From: Pseudomonas sp. S04
GTDB taxonomy: Bacteria > Pseudomonadota > Gammaproteobacteria > Pseudomonadales > Pseudomonadaceae
DNA: 64,000 nt
Assembly (NCBI RefSeq): GCF_009834545.1
Contig: NZ_CP019427.1
Location: 5,028,001 to 5,092,000, forward strand
Reading direction: 5' to 3'
Position 1 is the first letter of the stretch, and each line of letters begins with the position of its first letter. This document shows positions 21,545-25,298 of this stretch, in pieces. Position numbers and translations under genes: made by a program. The notes below the pieces were generated by a model, which did not search any database, was not told the DNA's origin, and worked only from the letters and a program-made list of their open reading frames with translations.

Positions 21545-22302
21545 GAGCAAAGCTTGCTCGCGATCGCGATCTCAAGGGCGGCATCGAGGCATCGCGGCAT
21601 AGGTATCTACACAACTGTGGTGCGACCGGGATGTTGGATCAGGCCGAGTACATATCCATTTCTTCGGTAACGGCCTCCTATGGTTCCGCCTGACGGCGGC
21701 TCACTTTTGGACAGCGCAAAAGTAAGCAAAACGCTACATCCCCACCACTCGGTGCCTCGCTTAGGCTCGGCATGCCCGTACTCCGACATTGATTTGGGGG
21801 GCCGCCGCAATGGGCCCTCCCTGGCCCAGTGCGGCTAAACCGGCGTCCTGCCGGTTTACCCCCCAAATCAATATCGGATTCCGGCCAGCGTGGTTAACGG
21901 GCGCCCAGAATCAAAAACAAAGCGAGGCGGCCTAAAAGCCGACCTGATCGCTAGGGCATGCGCGGTGTAGCTTCTACTTCCTAAGACGCTGACGAAGTCA
22001 GCCATCTTTTGATCTGGCTTTGGCTTTGGCTTTTGATCCTGGGCGCCCCGTTAACCACGCTGGCCGAACGCAGGCTTGAAGCCGTGGGTAACCCGGCAGG
22101 ACGCCGGGTTAGCCGCCCCGCGCCATGGATGGCGCGTGGCGGCGGCCCACGGATTCAAGCCTGCGTGAGGGCACACCGAGCCTAAGCGAGGTGCCGAGTG
22201 GTGGGGCAAGAGCGTTTTGCTTACTTTTGCGCTTCTCAAAAGTGAGCCGCCGTTGAACTGCCCCCCGAATGTTGGACACCTGACCCCTCGGGAGGGTGTT
22301 CC

Positions 22303-22845
22303 ATGACGAAATACAACCTAGCACTCAAGCAATCACTGATTGAAGAGTGTTTGTCTGCCAGTAGCGTTCATGAGGTGGCCCTCAAGCATGGCTTGAGTCC
22401 ATCGCTGCTGCGGCGCTGGATCAAGGGTTTTGAAAAACACGGTGCCTCTGGCTTGATTGCCAAGTACAGCCATTACGATGCCCAGTTTAAATTGAAGGTT
22501 TTGCAGTGCATCGAACAAGATGGACTGTCGGACCAACAGGCCTGTATACGGTTTGATATCCGTGGTCCAAGTAGTATCAGGCAGTGGCGAAAGCTGTACG
22601 ATGAAGGCGGTGTAGAAGCACTACAACCGCATCGTCTTAAAGAGTCCAGCATGCCCCGCAAACCTTCTAGGCAACCCAAAGCAAGTCCTGTTCTTCCTGC
22701 GGACGCAGAGCTGACCTCTGAACAAATGCTCGCAGAACTGGCCTATCTGCGCGCGGAGAATGCCTATCTAAAAAAGCTCGATGCCTTAATCCAAGCGGAT
22801 CCCCGTACTGCGCAGCCAAAAAAACGCAGTCCGTCCAAGGATTGA
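22303..22845 (+). CDS. IS3-family transposase OrfA (copy 1)
   Basis: 180-residue DNA-binding subunit. Two helix-turn-helix repeats of the IS150 type are seen (SSVHEVALKHGLSPSLLRRW and LSDQQACIRFDIRGPSSIRQW), then a basic segment and a C-terminal leucine-rich coil (EQMLAELAYLRAENAYLKKL). An A7 run at 22818-22824, close to its end, is a likely -1 programmed frameshift site; the orfB frame is open from there, so an OrfAB fusion transposase can be made. Confidence 0.93.
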   Translation: MTKYNLALKQSLIEECLSASSVHEVALKHGLSPSLLRRWIKGFEKHGASGLIAKYSHYDAQFKLKVLQCIEQDGLSDQQACIRFDIRGPSSIRQWRKLYDEGGVEALQPHRLKESSMPRKPSRQPKASPVLPADAELTSEQMLAELAYLRAENAYLKKLDALIQADPRTAQPKKRSPSKD

Positions 22846-23666
22846 GGCATGAGTATCCACTTGCTCTGTTGCTACGTGCTGCGGGACTTGCACGCAGTAC
22901 CTTCTATTATCAAAGCAAAACACTGCTAACCGACAAGCATGCCGACCTTAAAGATCGCATCCGCAGCGTCTATCACGGGCATAAGGGGCGTTACGGCTAC
23001 CGCCGTATCACCGCAACCCTTGGAAACAGTGGTGAGTTGATCAATCACAAGAAGGTGCATCGGCTGATGCAGATGATGGGCCTCAAGTCGTTGGTCAAAG
23101 TGAAGAAATATCGCTCTTACCGAGGTGCTGAAGGGCTTGTTGCGCCTGATCTACTAAAGCGCGAATTTAAGGCAGAAGCCCCTAACCAGAAATGGGCAAC
23201 CGACGTGACGGAGTTCAAGGTGAAGGGGCAGAAACTGTTTCTTTCGCCTCTCATGGATTTGTACAACGGCGAGATCCTGGCTTACCAGATCAACCGACGT
23301 CCCGAGTTCAGGATGGTTTCGACGATGCTGGAAAAGGCCTTCGGGCGACTGAATCAAGGGGACAAACCGATACTGCACTCTGACCAGGGTTGGCAGTACA
23401 GGCAGCCTACCTACCGACACATGCTGGCCGAAAAGAGCATCGAGCAGAGCATGTCGCGCAAGGGTAATTGCTTGGACAATGCCGCCATGGAAAGCTTTTT
23501 CGGCACGCTCAAGAGCGAGTTTTTCTATCTGGAATCATTTGAGAGTGTGGAGCAGCTGGCATCAGGCATAGAGGATTACATCGCCTACTACAACCAAGAC
23601 CGCATAAGCCTCAGACTGAATGGCTTGAGCCCGGTACAATTTCGGACCCAGGCATTAAATCAATAG
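22842..23666 (+). CDS. IS3-family transposase OrfB, DDE integrase (copy 1)
   Basis: 274 residues with the retroviral-integrase-type catalytic core. The DDE residues are in WATDVTEFKV, LHSDQGWQY and LDNAAMESFFGTLKSE; the HTH_21-like N-terminus contains YHGHKGRYGYRRI. It overlaps orfA by 4 bp in the -1 frame, with only a TTG available as its own start, so most product is probably made by frameshifting from orfA. Confidence 0.93.
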   Translation: MRHEYPLALLLRAAGLARSTFYYQSKTLLTDKHADLKDRIRSVYHGHKGRYGYRRITATLGNSGELINHKKVHRLMQMMGLKSLVKVKKYRSYRGAEGLVAPDLLKREFKAEAPNQKWATDVTEFKVKGQKLFLSPLMDLYNGEILAYQINRRPEFRMVSTMLEKAFGRLNQGDKPILHSDQGWQYRQPTYRHMLAEKSIEQSMSRKGNCLDNAAMESFFGTLKSEFFYLESFESVEQLASGIEDYIAYYNQDRISLRLNGLSPVQFRTQALNQ

Positions 23667-23828
23667 CGTCCCCTGTCCAACTTTCGGGGGGCAGTTCACG
23701 TCAGGCGGAACCATAGGAGGCCGTTACCGCAAAAATGGATATGTACTCCGCCTAATCCAACACCCCAGAGGCCGCCACGCGGGCAAGCCTTGCTCCTACA
23801 ACAGCGCGTAGTCGAATCACATTATGGA

Positions 23829-23874
23829 TTAGCCTCCAAAGGCTACTTTTGCAAATGTAGCCTTTAGAGGCTAC
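23829..23874. promoter_or_regulatory. Tandem 18-bp palindromes upstream of the SatD-like gene
   Basis: Two palindromes of the form GTAGCCT-N4-AGGCTAC: 23829-23846 (one outer mismatch, centre CCAA) and 23857-23874 (perfect, centre TTAG). Start-to-start spacing is 28 bp. The second one lies exactly between the candidate -35 and -10 of the promoter at 23849-23877, which is where a repressor operator would act. The same pair with the same spacing recurs at 25253-25298. Confidence 0.7.
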
Positions 23875-23877
23875 TTT
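23849..23877 (+). promoter_or_regulatory. Candidate promoter for the SatD-like/DUF3307 operon
   Basis: TTGCAA at 23849-23854 and TACTTT at 23872-23877 with 17 bp between, 32 bp before the ATG. Palindrome 2 fills the spacer. Moderate matches only. Confidence 0.4.
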
Positions 23878-23908
23878 TAAGCACTACGTCTTTCCTCTAG
23901 GCACCTGC

Positions 23909-24526
23909 ATGACGATCAAGGCAGTCCTGACCGGCGATCTGATTCATTCCCAGCACTCCCACGACACCCTGGCGTACATCGAGGGGCTTGCAGCAGTGCT
24001 GGCGACCTTGAGTGAGCGCTACGGCGCCAGCGCTGAAACCTTCCGTGGCGATGGCTTTCAACTGGTGCTCGGGCAACCGGCGCTGGCCTTCGACTGTGCG
24101 CTGGCCTTGCGGGCCGGGCTGATTGCCGCCAGTCCCAAAGGCGAGCGTTGGGACGCCCGGGTCGCCATCGGCCTCGGAACGGCGCAAGCAGACCAAGGCT
24201 ACGGCGAAGTCTTTGTGCTTTCCGGGCAAGGCCTGGACAGCATGAAAAAATCGACCCTGGGGGTTTTCAGCAGCGACGGGCAGTTTCTCGAGCGCACAGA
24301 GCTGGTGACCGAGTTTGTCGGCGCCATCATCGAGCAATGGACCCAGGTGGAGGCCCAGACCTACGGCGTACACCTGACCAGCCAGGGCGATCAATCGAGT
24401 ACCGCCCACTACCTGGGCAAATCCCGGGTCACGGTCAACAAGGCCTTGCAACGGGCCCAGGCACGATTGCTCGATCGTTTCCTGGAACGCACCCACCAGT
24501 GGATCGAGGAGTTGCAACATGGCTGA
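23909..24526 (+). CDS. SatD-like regulator/adaptor with C-terminal helix-turn-helix
   Basis: 205 residues. The N-terminus VLTGDLIHSQ and the FRGDGFQLVLG and ARVAIGLGTAQ segments resemble the SatD family, whose fold is related to nucleotidyl-cyclase-like domains but whose role is not established. The C-terminus HYLGKSRVTVNKALQRAQAR looks like a helix-turn-helix, so it may bind the palindromes on both sides of the operon. It overlaps the downstream membrane-protein gene by 8 bp. The ribosome-binding site is weak. A SatD-type gene next to a DUF3307-type gene is a recurrent pairing; in Streptococcus mutans the name comes from the acid-tolerance sat operon. Function here is unknown. Confidence 0.72.
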   Translation: MTIKAVLTGDLIHSQHSHDTLAYIEGLAAVLATLSERYGASAETFRGDGFQLVLGQPALAFDCALALRAGLIAASPKGERWDARVAIGLGTAQADQGYGEVFVLSGQGLDSMKKSTLGVFSSDGQFLERTELVTEFVGAIIEQWTQVEAQTYGVHLTSQGDQSSTAHYLGKSRVTVNKALQRAQARLLDRFLERTHQWIEELQHG

Positions 24527-25256
24527 GCCGAGCACCCTGTTGCTGATACTGCTACTGATCCATGTGCTGGCCGACTTCTCCCTGCCGTGGAAACGCTGGT
24601 TCAGCGATGCTGCCACCGGCTTACACCGAGCGCGGGCGCTGACGGGCTATGTCGCGGTCGCCGGGCTGGGCTACTTTAGCGCGCTGGCGCTGACTGCCAA
24701 CCCGCTCCCCTGGGCTGCACTGATCGCGCTGTCGCTGGCCGTGGCACGAGCGGCGCTGCATGGATTACTACCGCGGCCCGCGCCCCATCCGGTGCGCCGT
24801 TTTATCCTGGAGCAGGGACTATGCGTGCTGGCGATCCTCGGGGTCTGGGCCGTGATCGAGGGTGCCGCGCTGCCCTGGCACGCCTGGTTGAGGGGACTGG
24901 TGAGCCCGCCAAACCTGTTGATCGCCCTGGCCTACCTGCTGGTGTTGCGCCCCACTTCCAGCTTGATCGGGGCCGCCCTCGCCCCGTGGATCAGGGAAGT
25001 CGACAAGCTCGGCTCACTGGCCAATGCCGGTGCGCTGATTGGCAATCTGGAGCGGGTGTTGATCCTGACCTTCGTCCTGTTGCAGCAATGGGAGGCCGTG
25101 GGTTTCCTGATCACCGCCAAAAGCATCCTGCGCTTCAATGAAATCCAGGGGGCCAAGGTCCGCTCACTGAGCGAATACGTGCTGCTGGGCACCTTGTTGA
25201 GTTTCACCATGAGTATCGCCATCGGGCTGGCGGTGACGCGGATCCTGGCACTGTAG
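24519..25256 (+). CDS. DUF3307-like integral membrane protein
   Basis: 245 residues with about six or seven membrane helices. The first helix contains LLILLLIHVLADFSLPWK, which resembles the HxxxDF pattern of the DUF3307 family; the C-terminal part has LERVLILTFVLLQQWEAVGF followed by the conserved-looking ITAKSILRFNEIQ and a final helix. It overlaps the SatD-like gene, so the two are made together. The last codon lies inside the first downstream palindrome (25253-25270). No transport or enzyme motif is recognised. Confidence 0.7.
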   Translation: MAEPSTLLLILLLIHVLADFSLPWKRWFSDAATGLHRARALTGYVAVAGLGYFSALALTANPLPWAALIALSLAVARAALHGLLPRPAPHPVRRFILEQGLCVLAILGVWAVIEGAALPWHAWLRGLVSPPNLLIALAYLLVLRPTSSLIGAALAPWIREVDKLGSLANAGALIGNLERVLILTFVLLQQWEAVGFLITAKSILRFNEIQGAKVRSLSEYVLLGTLLSFTMSIAIGLAVTRILAL

Positions 25257-25298
25257 CCTCCTGAGGCTACTTTTCGAGATGTAGCCTCAGAAGGCTAC
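25253..25298. promoter_or_regulatory. Second tandem pair of 18-bp palindromes, downstream of the DUF3307-like gene
   Basis: Perfect copies GTAGCCT-N4-AGGCTAC at 25253-25270 (centre CCTG, overlapping the stop codon) and 25281-25298 (centre CAGA), spaced 28 bp start to start like the upstream pair. The 10-bp gaps are ttttgcaaat upstream and ttttcgagat here. It lies 101 bp before the diguanylate cyclase gene and may control it, or act as a 3' hairpin of the operon. Confidence 0.65.

Follow-up and report, generated by a model that had tools for sequence, protein, structure and literature searches.

Paired palindromic sites around a SatD-related two-gene operon of Pseudomonas sp. S04: a probable regulatory module with a predicted operator over its own promoter

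The palm domains of class III nucleotide cyclases (e.g., Ma1120), GGDEF proteins and Cas10 have a common fold and two invariant aspartates. Looping repressors such as lambda CI and the Gal repressor act from operators located at two places. Two-gene systems pairing a palm-domain nucleotide enzyme with a membrane protein are represented by Panoptes (OptS/OptE; PMC12657218) and Pycsar. Here we describe a two-gene operon flanked by four palindromic sites, in a 64,000-nucleotide stretch of the genome of Pseudomonas sp. S04 (assembly GCF_009834545.1, contig NZ_CP019427.1, positions 5,028,001 to 5,092,000 of the forward strand; hereafter the window, within which all coordinates are given). Gene 1 (23909..24526, forward strand) encodes a protein of 205 amino acids with a palm domain carrying both aspartates (D10 and D48) and a C-terminal helix-turn-helix (HTH), and gene 2 (24519..25256, forward strand), the start of which overlaps gene 1 by 8 bases, encodes an all-helical DUF3307-like protein of 245 amino acids, presumably membrane-bound. 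As the overall explanation of this locus, a self-contained regulatory module is considered probable, with good though not full confidence.

The pattern GTAGCCT-N4-AGGCTAC was found four times around the operon, starting at positions 23829, 23857, 25253 and 25281, so that the start-to-start period within each pair is 28 bp; the 10-bp gaps inside the two pairs are TTTTGCAAAT and TTTTCGAGAT. Three copies are perfect, and the first upstream copy (TTAGCCTCCAAAGGCTAC, 23829..23846) has one mismatch, its half-site beginning TTAGCC. Pattern scans confirmed the two pairs as originally predicted, and TTTT directly follows three of the four palindromes, also as claimed. Within the window, 7 matches were obtained with up to three mismatches as against a shuffle mean of 1.51, and this number was reached in 1 of 100 shuffles. 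In the whole 6.1-Mb genome, only the four operon sites matched with at most one mismatch, and the scattering of sites without the gene pair that the original prediction had named as contrary to it was not seen in this genome. Twelve other genomic matches have two mismatches; because none of these is paired with another and a reversed control pattern yielded 14 matches at the same stringency, they were attributed to chance. Repetitive extragenic palindromic (REP/REPIN) repeats were considered and rejected, as many dispersed copies would be expected of them. Among 298 genomes of the genus, a 46-bp pair pattern allowing up to three mismatches was detected in 9, and its reversed control in 0.

The geometry of the upstream pair was conserved well beyond the genus. 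In a free-spacing scan of the 260 bp before gene 1 at 38 loci, with an arm gap of 2-8 and a period of 20-40, the scan itself chose a period of 28 at 31 loci and of 29 at two, and 32 of these 33 loci beat simple base shuffles (4/60 or better). A score of 22 was reached by 25 of the 38 upstream regions as against 2 of 228 control windows taken at these loci, and of the 27 controls scoring at least 21, one showed the period of 28. The Pfam SatD model led to three more loci, with periods of 29, 28 and 28 (0/60 shuffles each). The half-sites varied among GTAGCC, GTAACC, TTAGCC, CAACCA, TGACCC, TGAACC, ATCACA and ACAACC, and three copies in register were recognized by eye at G235, V. lentus and L172 (G and L numbers are our handles for genomes and loci). 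The period-28 pair of Segatella copri (Bacteroidota; score 22, 1/60 shuffles) is treated as unproven, because the region is AT-rich and its half-sites are unclear. The 38 loci include one duplicate (L037/G361) and near-duplicates (two Pseudoalteromonas, two Salinivibrio, and the window with G251); outside them stand a G085 fragment and L030-L033, which are mostly from genomes already in the set.

The position of the upstream pair relative to a promoter became apparent from the comparison of 26 loci having a recognizable pair in the canonical register. Failures of the period scan were excluded from this set, as were E. kobei, the P. fragi plasmid, Segatella and G867, which have another register or spacing, and the near-copies L036, L037 and the second Pseudoalteromonas; locus counts derive from the re-oriented set, and the positions used for the 26-locus table and for the complementarity comparison below were entered by hand. 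TTG occupied linker positions 3-5 in 21 of the 26 upstream pairs and in none of 18 downstream pairs, and TAnnnT began at base 16 of the second copy in 25 of 26 and 6 of 18, respectively; as the TA is already given by the half-site, the information of the -10 lies in its final T. In the window, these elements correspond to a candidate -35 (TTGCAA, 23849..23854, forward strand) in the linker between the two copies and a candidate -10 (TACTTT, 23872..23877, forward strand) starting in the last three bases of the second copy. The two hexamers are 17 bp apart, and the second copy (23857..23874) occupies this spacer and runs into the -10. A simple promoter scan listed no promoter at the upstream pair, and it was the conservation across relatives that bore out the claim of the original prediction that this copy lies in a promoter spacer. 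On the evidence of these alignments, the upstream pair is well supported as a deeply conserved, putative palindromic operator that overlaps the promoter of its own operon.

Gene 1 is the presumed reader of this operator. Its N-terminal part has the class III cyclase/GGDEF-type palm fold, and D10 and D48, which from cyclase anatomy we take to be the metal ligands, were invariant in all 79 aligned sequences and in 17 of 17 of a second set, 11 sequences being shared between the sets. For this alignment, 78 homologs were picked for spread from the 120 that were listed, out of 147 found by the protein search. Residues 46-50 read R46-G47-D48-G49-F50 and thus differ from the GG(D/E)EF signature; from the palm fold, a nucleotide-cyclizing activity is putative. 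The C-terminal HTH, which the original prediction had noted, is sigma-70-region-4-like, and its recognition region varies along with the half-site: T175A and A183G were present in both genomes with GTAACC half-sites, and residue 177 was His in the six Pseudomonadaceae loci with TTAGCC. The earlier label SatD-like held in part. The window protein gave no match to the Pfam SatD family (PF16264) at E ≤1, below the gathering cut-off, and G000 was negative in the genome-wide search with the SatD model. Relatedness was established through intermediates, in that 36 of the 79 aligned members matched the family at E ≤0.1 (best 4e-5), and some gene 1 homologs are named SatD in UniRef. Gene 1 is thus, as judged from these family members, a distant relative of SatD. 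The loci found with the SatD model itself (G867, G1149 and G1215 over the cut-off, G958 below it) have the same tandem operator.

The same held for gene 2 and its DUF3307-like label: the window protein reached 19.8 bits against DUF3307 (PF11750) over residues 7-73 only, below the cut-off of 23 bits, and 38 of 75 aligned members of its family matched DUF3307 at E ≤0.01. The two genes travel together. At seven of nine plasmid loci (Segatella, P. fragi, Enterobacter kobei, Sphingomonas, Vibrio lentus and two Salinivibrio), gene 1 is followed by a gene annotated DUF3307, and the remaining two plasmid records, of Pseudoalteromonas, have no gene annotation at that place. The partners of three of the four loci found with the SatD model carry the same C-terminal signature, and that of G867 only resembles it. 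By eye, the short partners of the SatD-type genes at L171 and L172 keep this signature, G..IG.LER...K...RF...EY, and seem to be without the N-terminal DUF3307 part; the G867 partner (L153) is also short. The module was found in 8 of the 298 genus genomes, one copy being decayed, and in 17 of 398 genomes of a family draw (4 of 19 genera). No relative was found in 50,697 phage records, none of 22 viral contig stretches that matched a pattern was confirmed, and PADLOC-DB anti-phage profiles did not match either protein at E ≤1. On the Sphingomonas plasmid (L138), the module adjoins genes annotated as a Pycsar effector, an E2-associated protein and a nucleotide cyclase, and a TIR-domain protein flanks it on the other side.

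The downstream pair consists of a first copy at 25253..25270, which includes the TAG stop of gene 2 (25254-25256), and a second copy at 25281..25298. It was found at 18 of the 26 tabulated loci, in Pseudomonas, two other genera of the family and Salinivibrio, one case (G434) being weak (score 19, near chance). At the loci where its start was placed relative to gene 2, the pair begins between 8 bases before and 37 bases after the end of this gene, except in G225, where it starts 297 bases after. No downstream pair was found at six Stutzerimonas-type loci, G390, V. lentus and Pseudoalteromonas, or on the plasmids of E. kobei, P. fragi, Segatella and Sphingomonas. Within a genome, the downstream half-sites followed the upstream ones (5.25 versus 4.69 matches of 6; 0 of 10,000 shuffles) in a comparison of 13 loci, some of them related. 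Since the half-sites of one end follow those of the other, one factor most likely reads both.

The pairs may alternatively be long RNA hairpins that terminate or stabilize transcripts and not operators at all, which we judge improbable. The predicted folding energies of the upstream pair (-25.4 kcal/mol), the downstream pair (-32.2 kcal/mol) and a single pair in G112 described below (-52.1 kcal/mol) all lie below those of shuffles. In addition, the two downstream copies show more complementarity between their central six bases than expected by chance (4.0 versus 2.68 of 6; 0 of 10,000 shuffles; 16 loci), which lends the hairpins of the original prediction some support at the downstream pair. 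In the upstream pairs, by contrast, this complementarity is marginal (3.45 versus 3.07; 468 of 10,000; 22 loci), and no transcript started at that promoter would include the upstream pair, which is located at the -10 and ahead of it. A single long hairpin would furthermore have no need for arms that are each palindromic by themselves and share one half-site, and an intrinsic terminator scan gave nothing at the pairs, the only terminator-like site of the region lying elsewhere. Among known RNA families, only a microRNA model matched at the downstream pair, and did so below threshold (20.7 bits as against a cut-off of 86). Complementarity without any RNA function could also arise by template-switch correction of inverted repeats. 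Besides being a putative operator, the downstream pair may have a second role as an RNA hairpin.

Taken together, these features suggest the following mechanism. Gene 1 would be a one-component regulator, in which a nucleotide-cyclase-type palm with an intact metal-binding site is joined to an HTH. A gene 1 dimer would sit on each GTAGCC-N6-GGCTAC palindrome, two dimers lying side by side at the fixed 28-bp spacing. Binding at the upstream pair is expected to repress gene 1 and gene 2, because the second copy lies between the -35 and the -10 and a protein bound in this spacer would block RNA polymerase; such autoregulation by gene 1 is very probable. The downstream pair would be a second operator for the same protein, a reading toward which we lean slightly, and in the simplest case looping of the 1.4-kb operon would strengthen repression; a 3'-end RNA hairpin formed by the pair is a further possibility. 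Sensing or turnover of a nucleotide by the palm domain would then release the DNA, and the gene 2 protein would rise as the output. The conserved aspartates leave nucleotide binding or turnover as the signal evenly balanced between acceptance and doubt, and the two-gene linkage makes gene 2 the likely output.

Several observations weigh against this mechanism. G440 has the geometry and is nonetheless not above shuffles (18/60). Five of the 38 loci (L038, in which gene 1 is interrupted by stops, Sphingomonas, G907, G839 and G880) lack it, showing other periods that do not beat shuffles; G907, G839 and G880 failed the period scan again, although their partner genes carry the C-terminal signature. 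The decayed G085 copy has no pair, and, as noted for the duplicates above, neither the 38 nor the 26 loci are independent, several being close relatives. The correspondence between HTH residues and half-sites is confounded by ancestry, and the GTAAC half-sites of Pseudoalteromonas occur with a different residue, so that no simple code holds. The downstream pair is not essential, because it was not found at 8 of the 26 loci. Structure comparison of gene 2 gave no informative match. Finally, the expectation that the pair always accompanies gene 1 was borne out in five of the nine pair-bearing genus genomes, and the other four keep a perfect pair at the module site of close relatives with no gene 1 found.

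These four single pairs (G124, G239, G173 and G112) lie between LysR-type and DUF72-like genes, so named from our own reading of their sequences, and at this very site G010 and G600 carry the pair-module-pair arrangement. The latter two genomes are co-linear here, 85.5% identical over 4 kb, with 87.5% for gene 1, 82.7% for gene 2 and 89.0% for the flanking LysR-type gene; because the module has diverged like its flanks, it was probably present in their common ancestor and lost elsewhere. In an unrooted tree of four genes, G010 and G600 fall apart, each near empty genomes, and the tree of the LysR-type gene by itself differs in part. If the root is placed between these groups, the pattern takes either three losses or two gains, and the count alone favors gains. 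We prefer an old module whose losses each left one pair. The leftover pairs may have kept a use, since their half-sites have stayed perfect and the right flank has diverged; a hairpin following the LysR-type gene is one possibility. In these four cases, the complementarity of the central bases (5.5 of 6 versus 4.19 for shuffled partners; 802 of 10,000) is high but not beyond shuffles. As RNA, the leftover pair of G112 (L057, 8555-8620) is predicted to fold into 26 unbroken pairs with a 4-base loop. In G085 (L053, 9181-9343), a decayed gene 1 with 47 matched codons and one internal stop ends at a single GTAACC palindrome, which looks like a deletion with its end at an operator palindrome.

Relatives without the module at this place were scanned behind the LysR-type gene. 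The query was found in 132 of the 398 genomes and gave 30 loci, of which 28 were scanned; L105 and L106, from single-pair genomes, were left out. Of these 28, four carry pairs, L122 is of insufficient length for a reading, and L127 corresponds to the window itself, in which the pair has been moved beyond the locus by an insertion. No pair scoring at least 22 within 1.5 kb was present at any of the 22 readable loci, a threshold at which degenerate pairs would be missed, and from this we conclude that the pairs come with the module. Most, though not all, of these 22 have the GGDEF gene next, as judged by eye. The joint control of the operon and this neighboring cyclase gene that had been proposed is thus disfavored, the downstream pair being present also where the next gene differs (G010, G225 and G600). 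The insertion in the window (about 21660-23755) contains an IS3-type transposase gene pair (22303-23666; the type was read from Pfam matches) together with additional sequence, and its two ends share several inverted-repeat matches. It separates the upstream pair from the LysR-type gene, a stretch of only 194 bp in the relative G251, and has left the promoter and operator intact.

The same single-pair sites could be read as those of a mobile cassette, in which a pair-gene 1-gene 2-pair unit inserts at or excises from a pair and one pair stays behind. Such sites occur in 4 of the 298 genus genomes, and the smaller number of gains in the four-gene tree, the patchy distribution of the module and its relatives in Burkholderia and on plasmids would all suit a cassette. 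A dedicated cassette, as entertained in the original prediction, is nevertheless unlikely: no recombinase or transposase was seen within the unit, the module of G010 and G600 is co-linear and diverged like its flanks, the site centers differ between the two ends, and a promoter lies in the upstream pair and none in the downstream pair. Throughout the 298 genomes, moreover, all pairs found are at the module or at the four single-pair sites, and no other cargo was seen. That the sites are operators of another cell regulator and not of gene 1 is very improbable as well: the four genomes with perfect pairs and no gene 1 found look as if the pairs were otherwise used, but within the genome only this operon has such sites, they accompany gene 1 again in distant families and on plasmids, and their half-sites change together at both ends and alongside the gene 1 HTH.

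As the original prediction had it, no function has been described for this gene pair in the open-licence literature searched, where SatD and DUF3307 never occur together, each being named separately ('SatD family', 'DUF3307'), and PF16264 and PF11750 are named nowhere. A search for satD, satC and acid tolerance found nothing. Neither name appears in the available text of PMC4886424, on uncharacterized cyclase-like proteins, or in the main text of the Panoptes report (PMC12657218). The conserved operator turns this uncharacterized gene pair into a testable regulator-output module, and it provides defined DNA targets, a promoter and naturally occurring half-site variants with which specificity could be addressed. 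The gene pair with its operator extends from Pseudomonas to Vibrionaceae and an Enterobacter plasmid, with a possible case in Bacteroidota, and suggests that a cyclase-type palm domain can be the sensor of a transcription factor. More broadly, SatD-type genes and their DUF3307-like partners could be widespread, horizontally shared nucleotide-signaling switches, in which the enzyme itself would be the repressor on tandem operators of 28-bp period and the membrane partner the effector, perhaps in anti-phage defence or stress; we regard this generalization as doubtful, and a defence role of the module is raised solely as a possibility.

With respect to the described systems, gene 1 has the fold and aspartates of class III cyclases and GGDEF proteins, but unlike them it is small, is fused to a C-terminal HTH, has no GGDEF motif, and its activity is putative. 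The two-gene logic resembles that of Panoptes and Pycsar; unlike the enzymes of these systems, gene 1 has a DNA-binding domain and an operator, and gene 2 is all-helical and DUF3307-like instead of an S-2TM-beta effector. A closer contact with Pycsar is the Sphingomonas relative, which lies beside annotated Pycsar parts and is itself without the operator geometry. Like lambda CI and the Gal repressor, the module has paired operators at two places, here 1.4 kb apart; it differs from both in that the second pair lies at the 3' end of the operon, from which gene 1 would act by looping.
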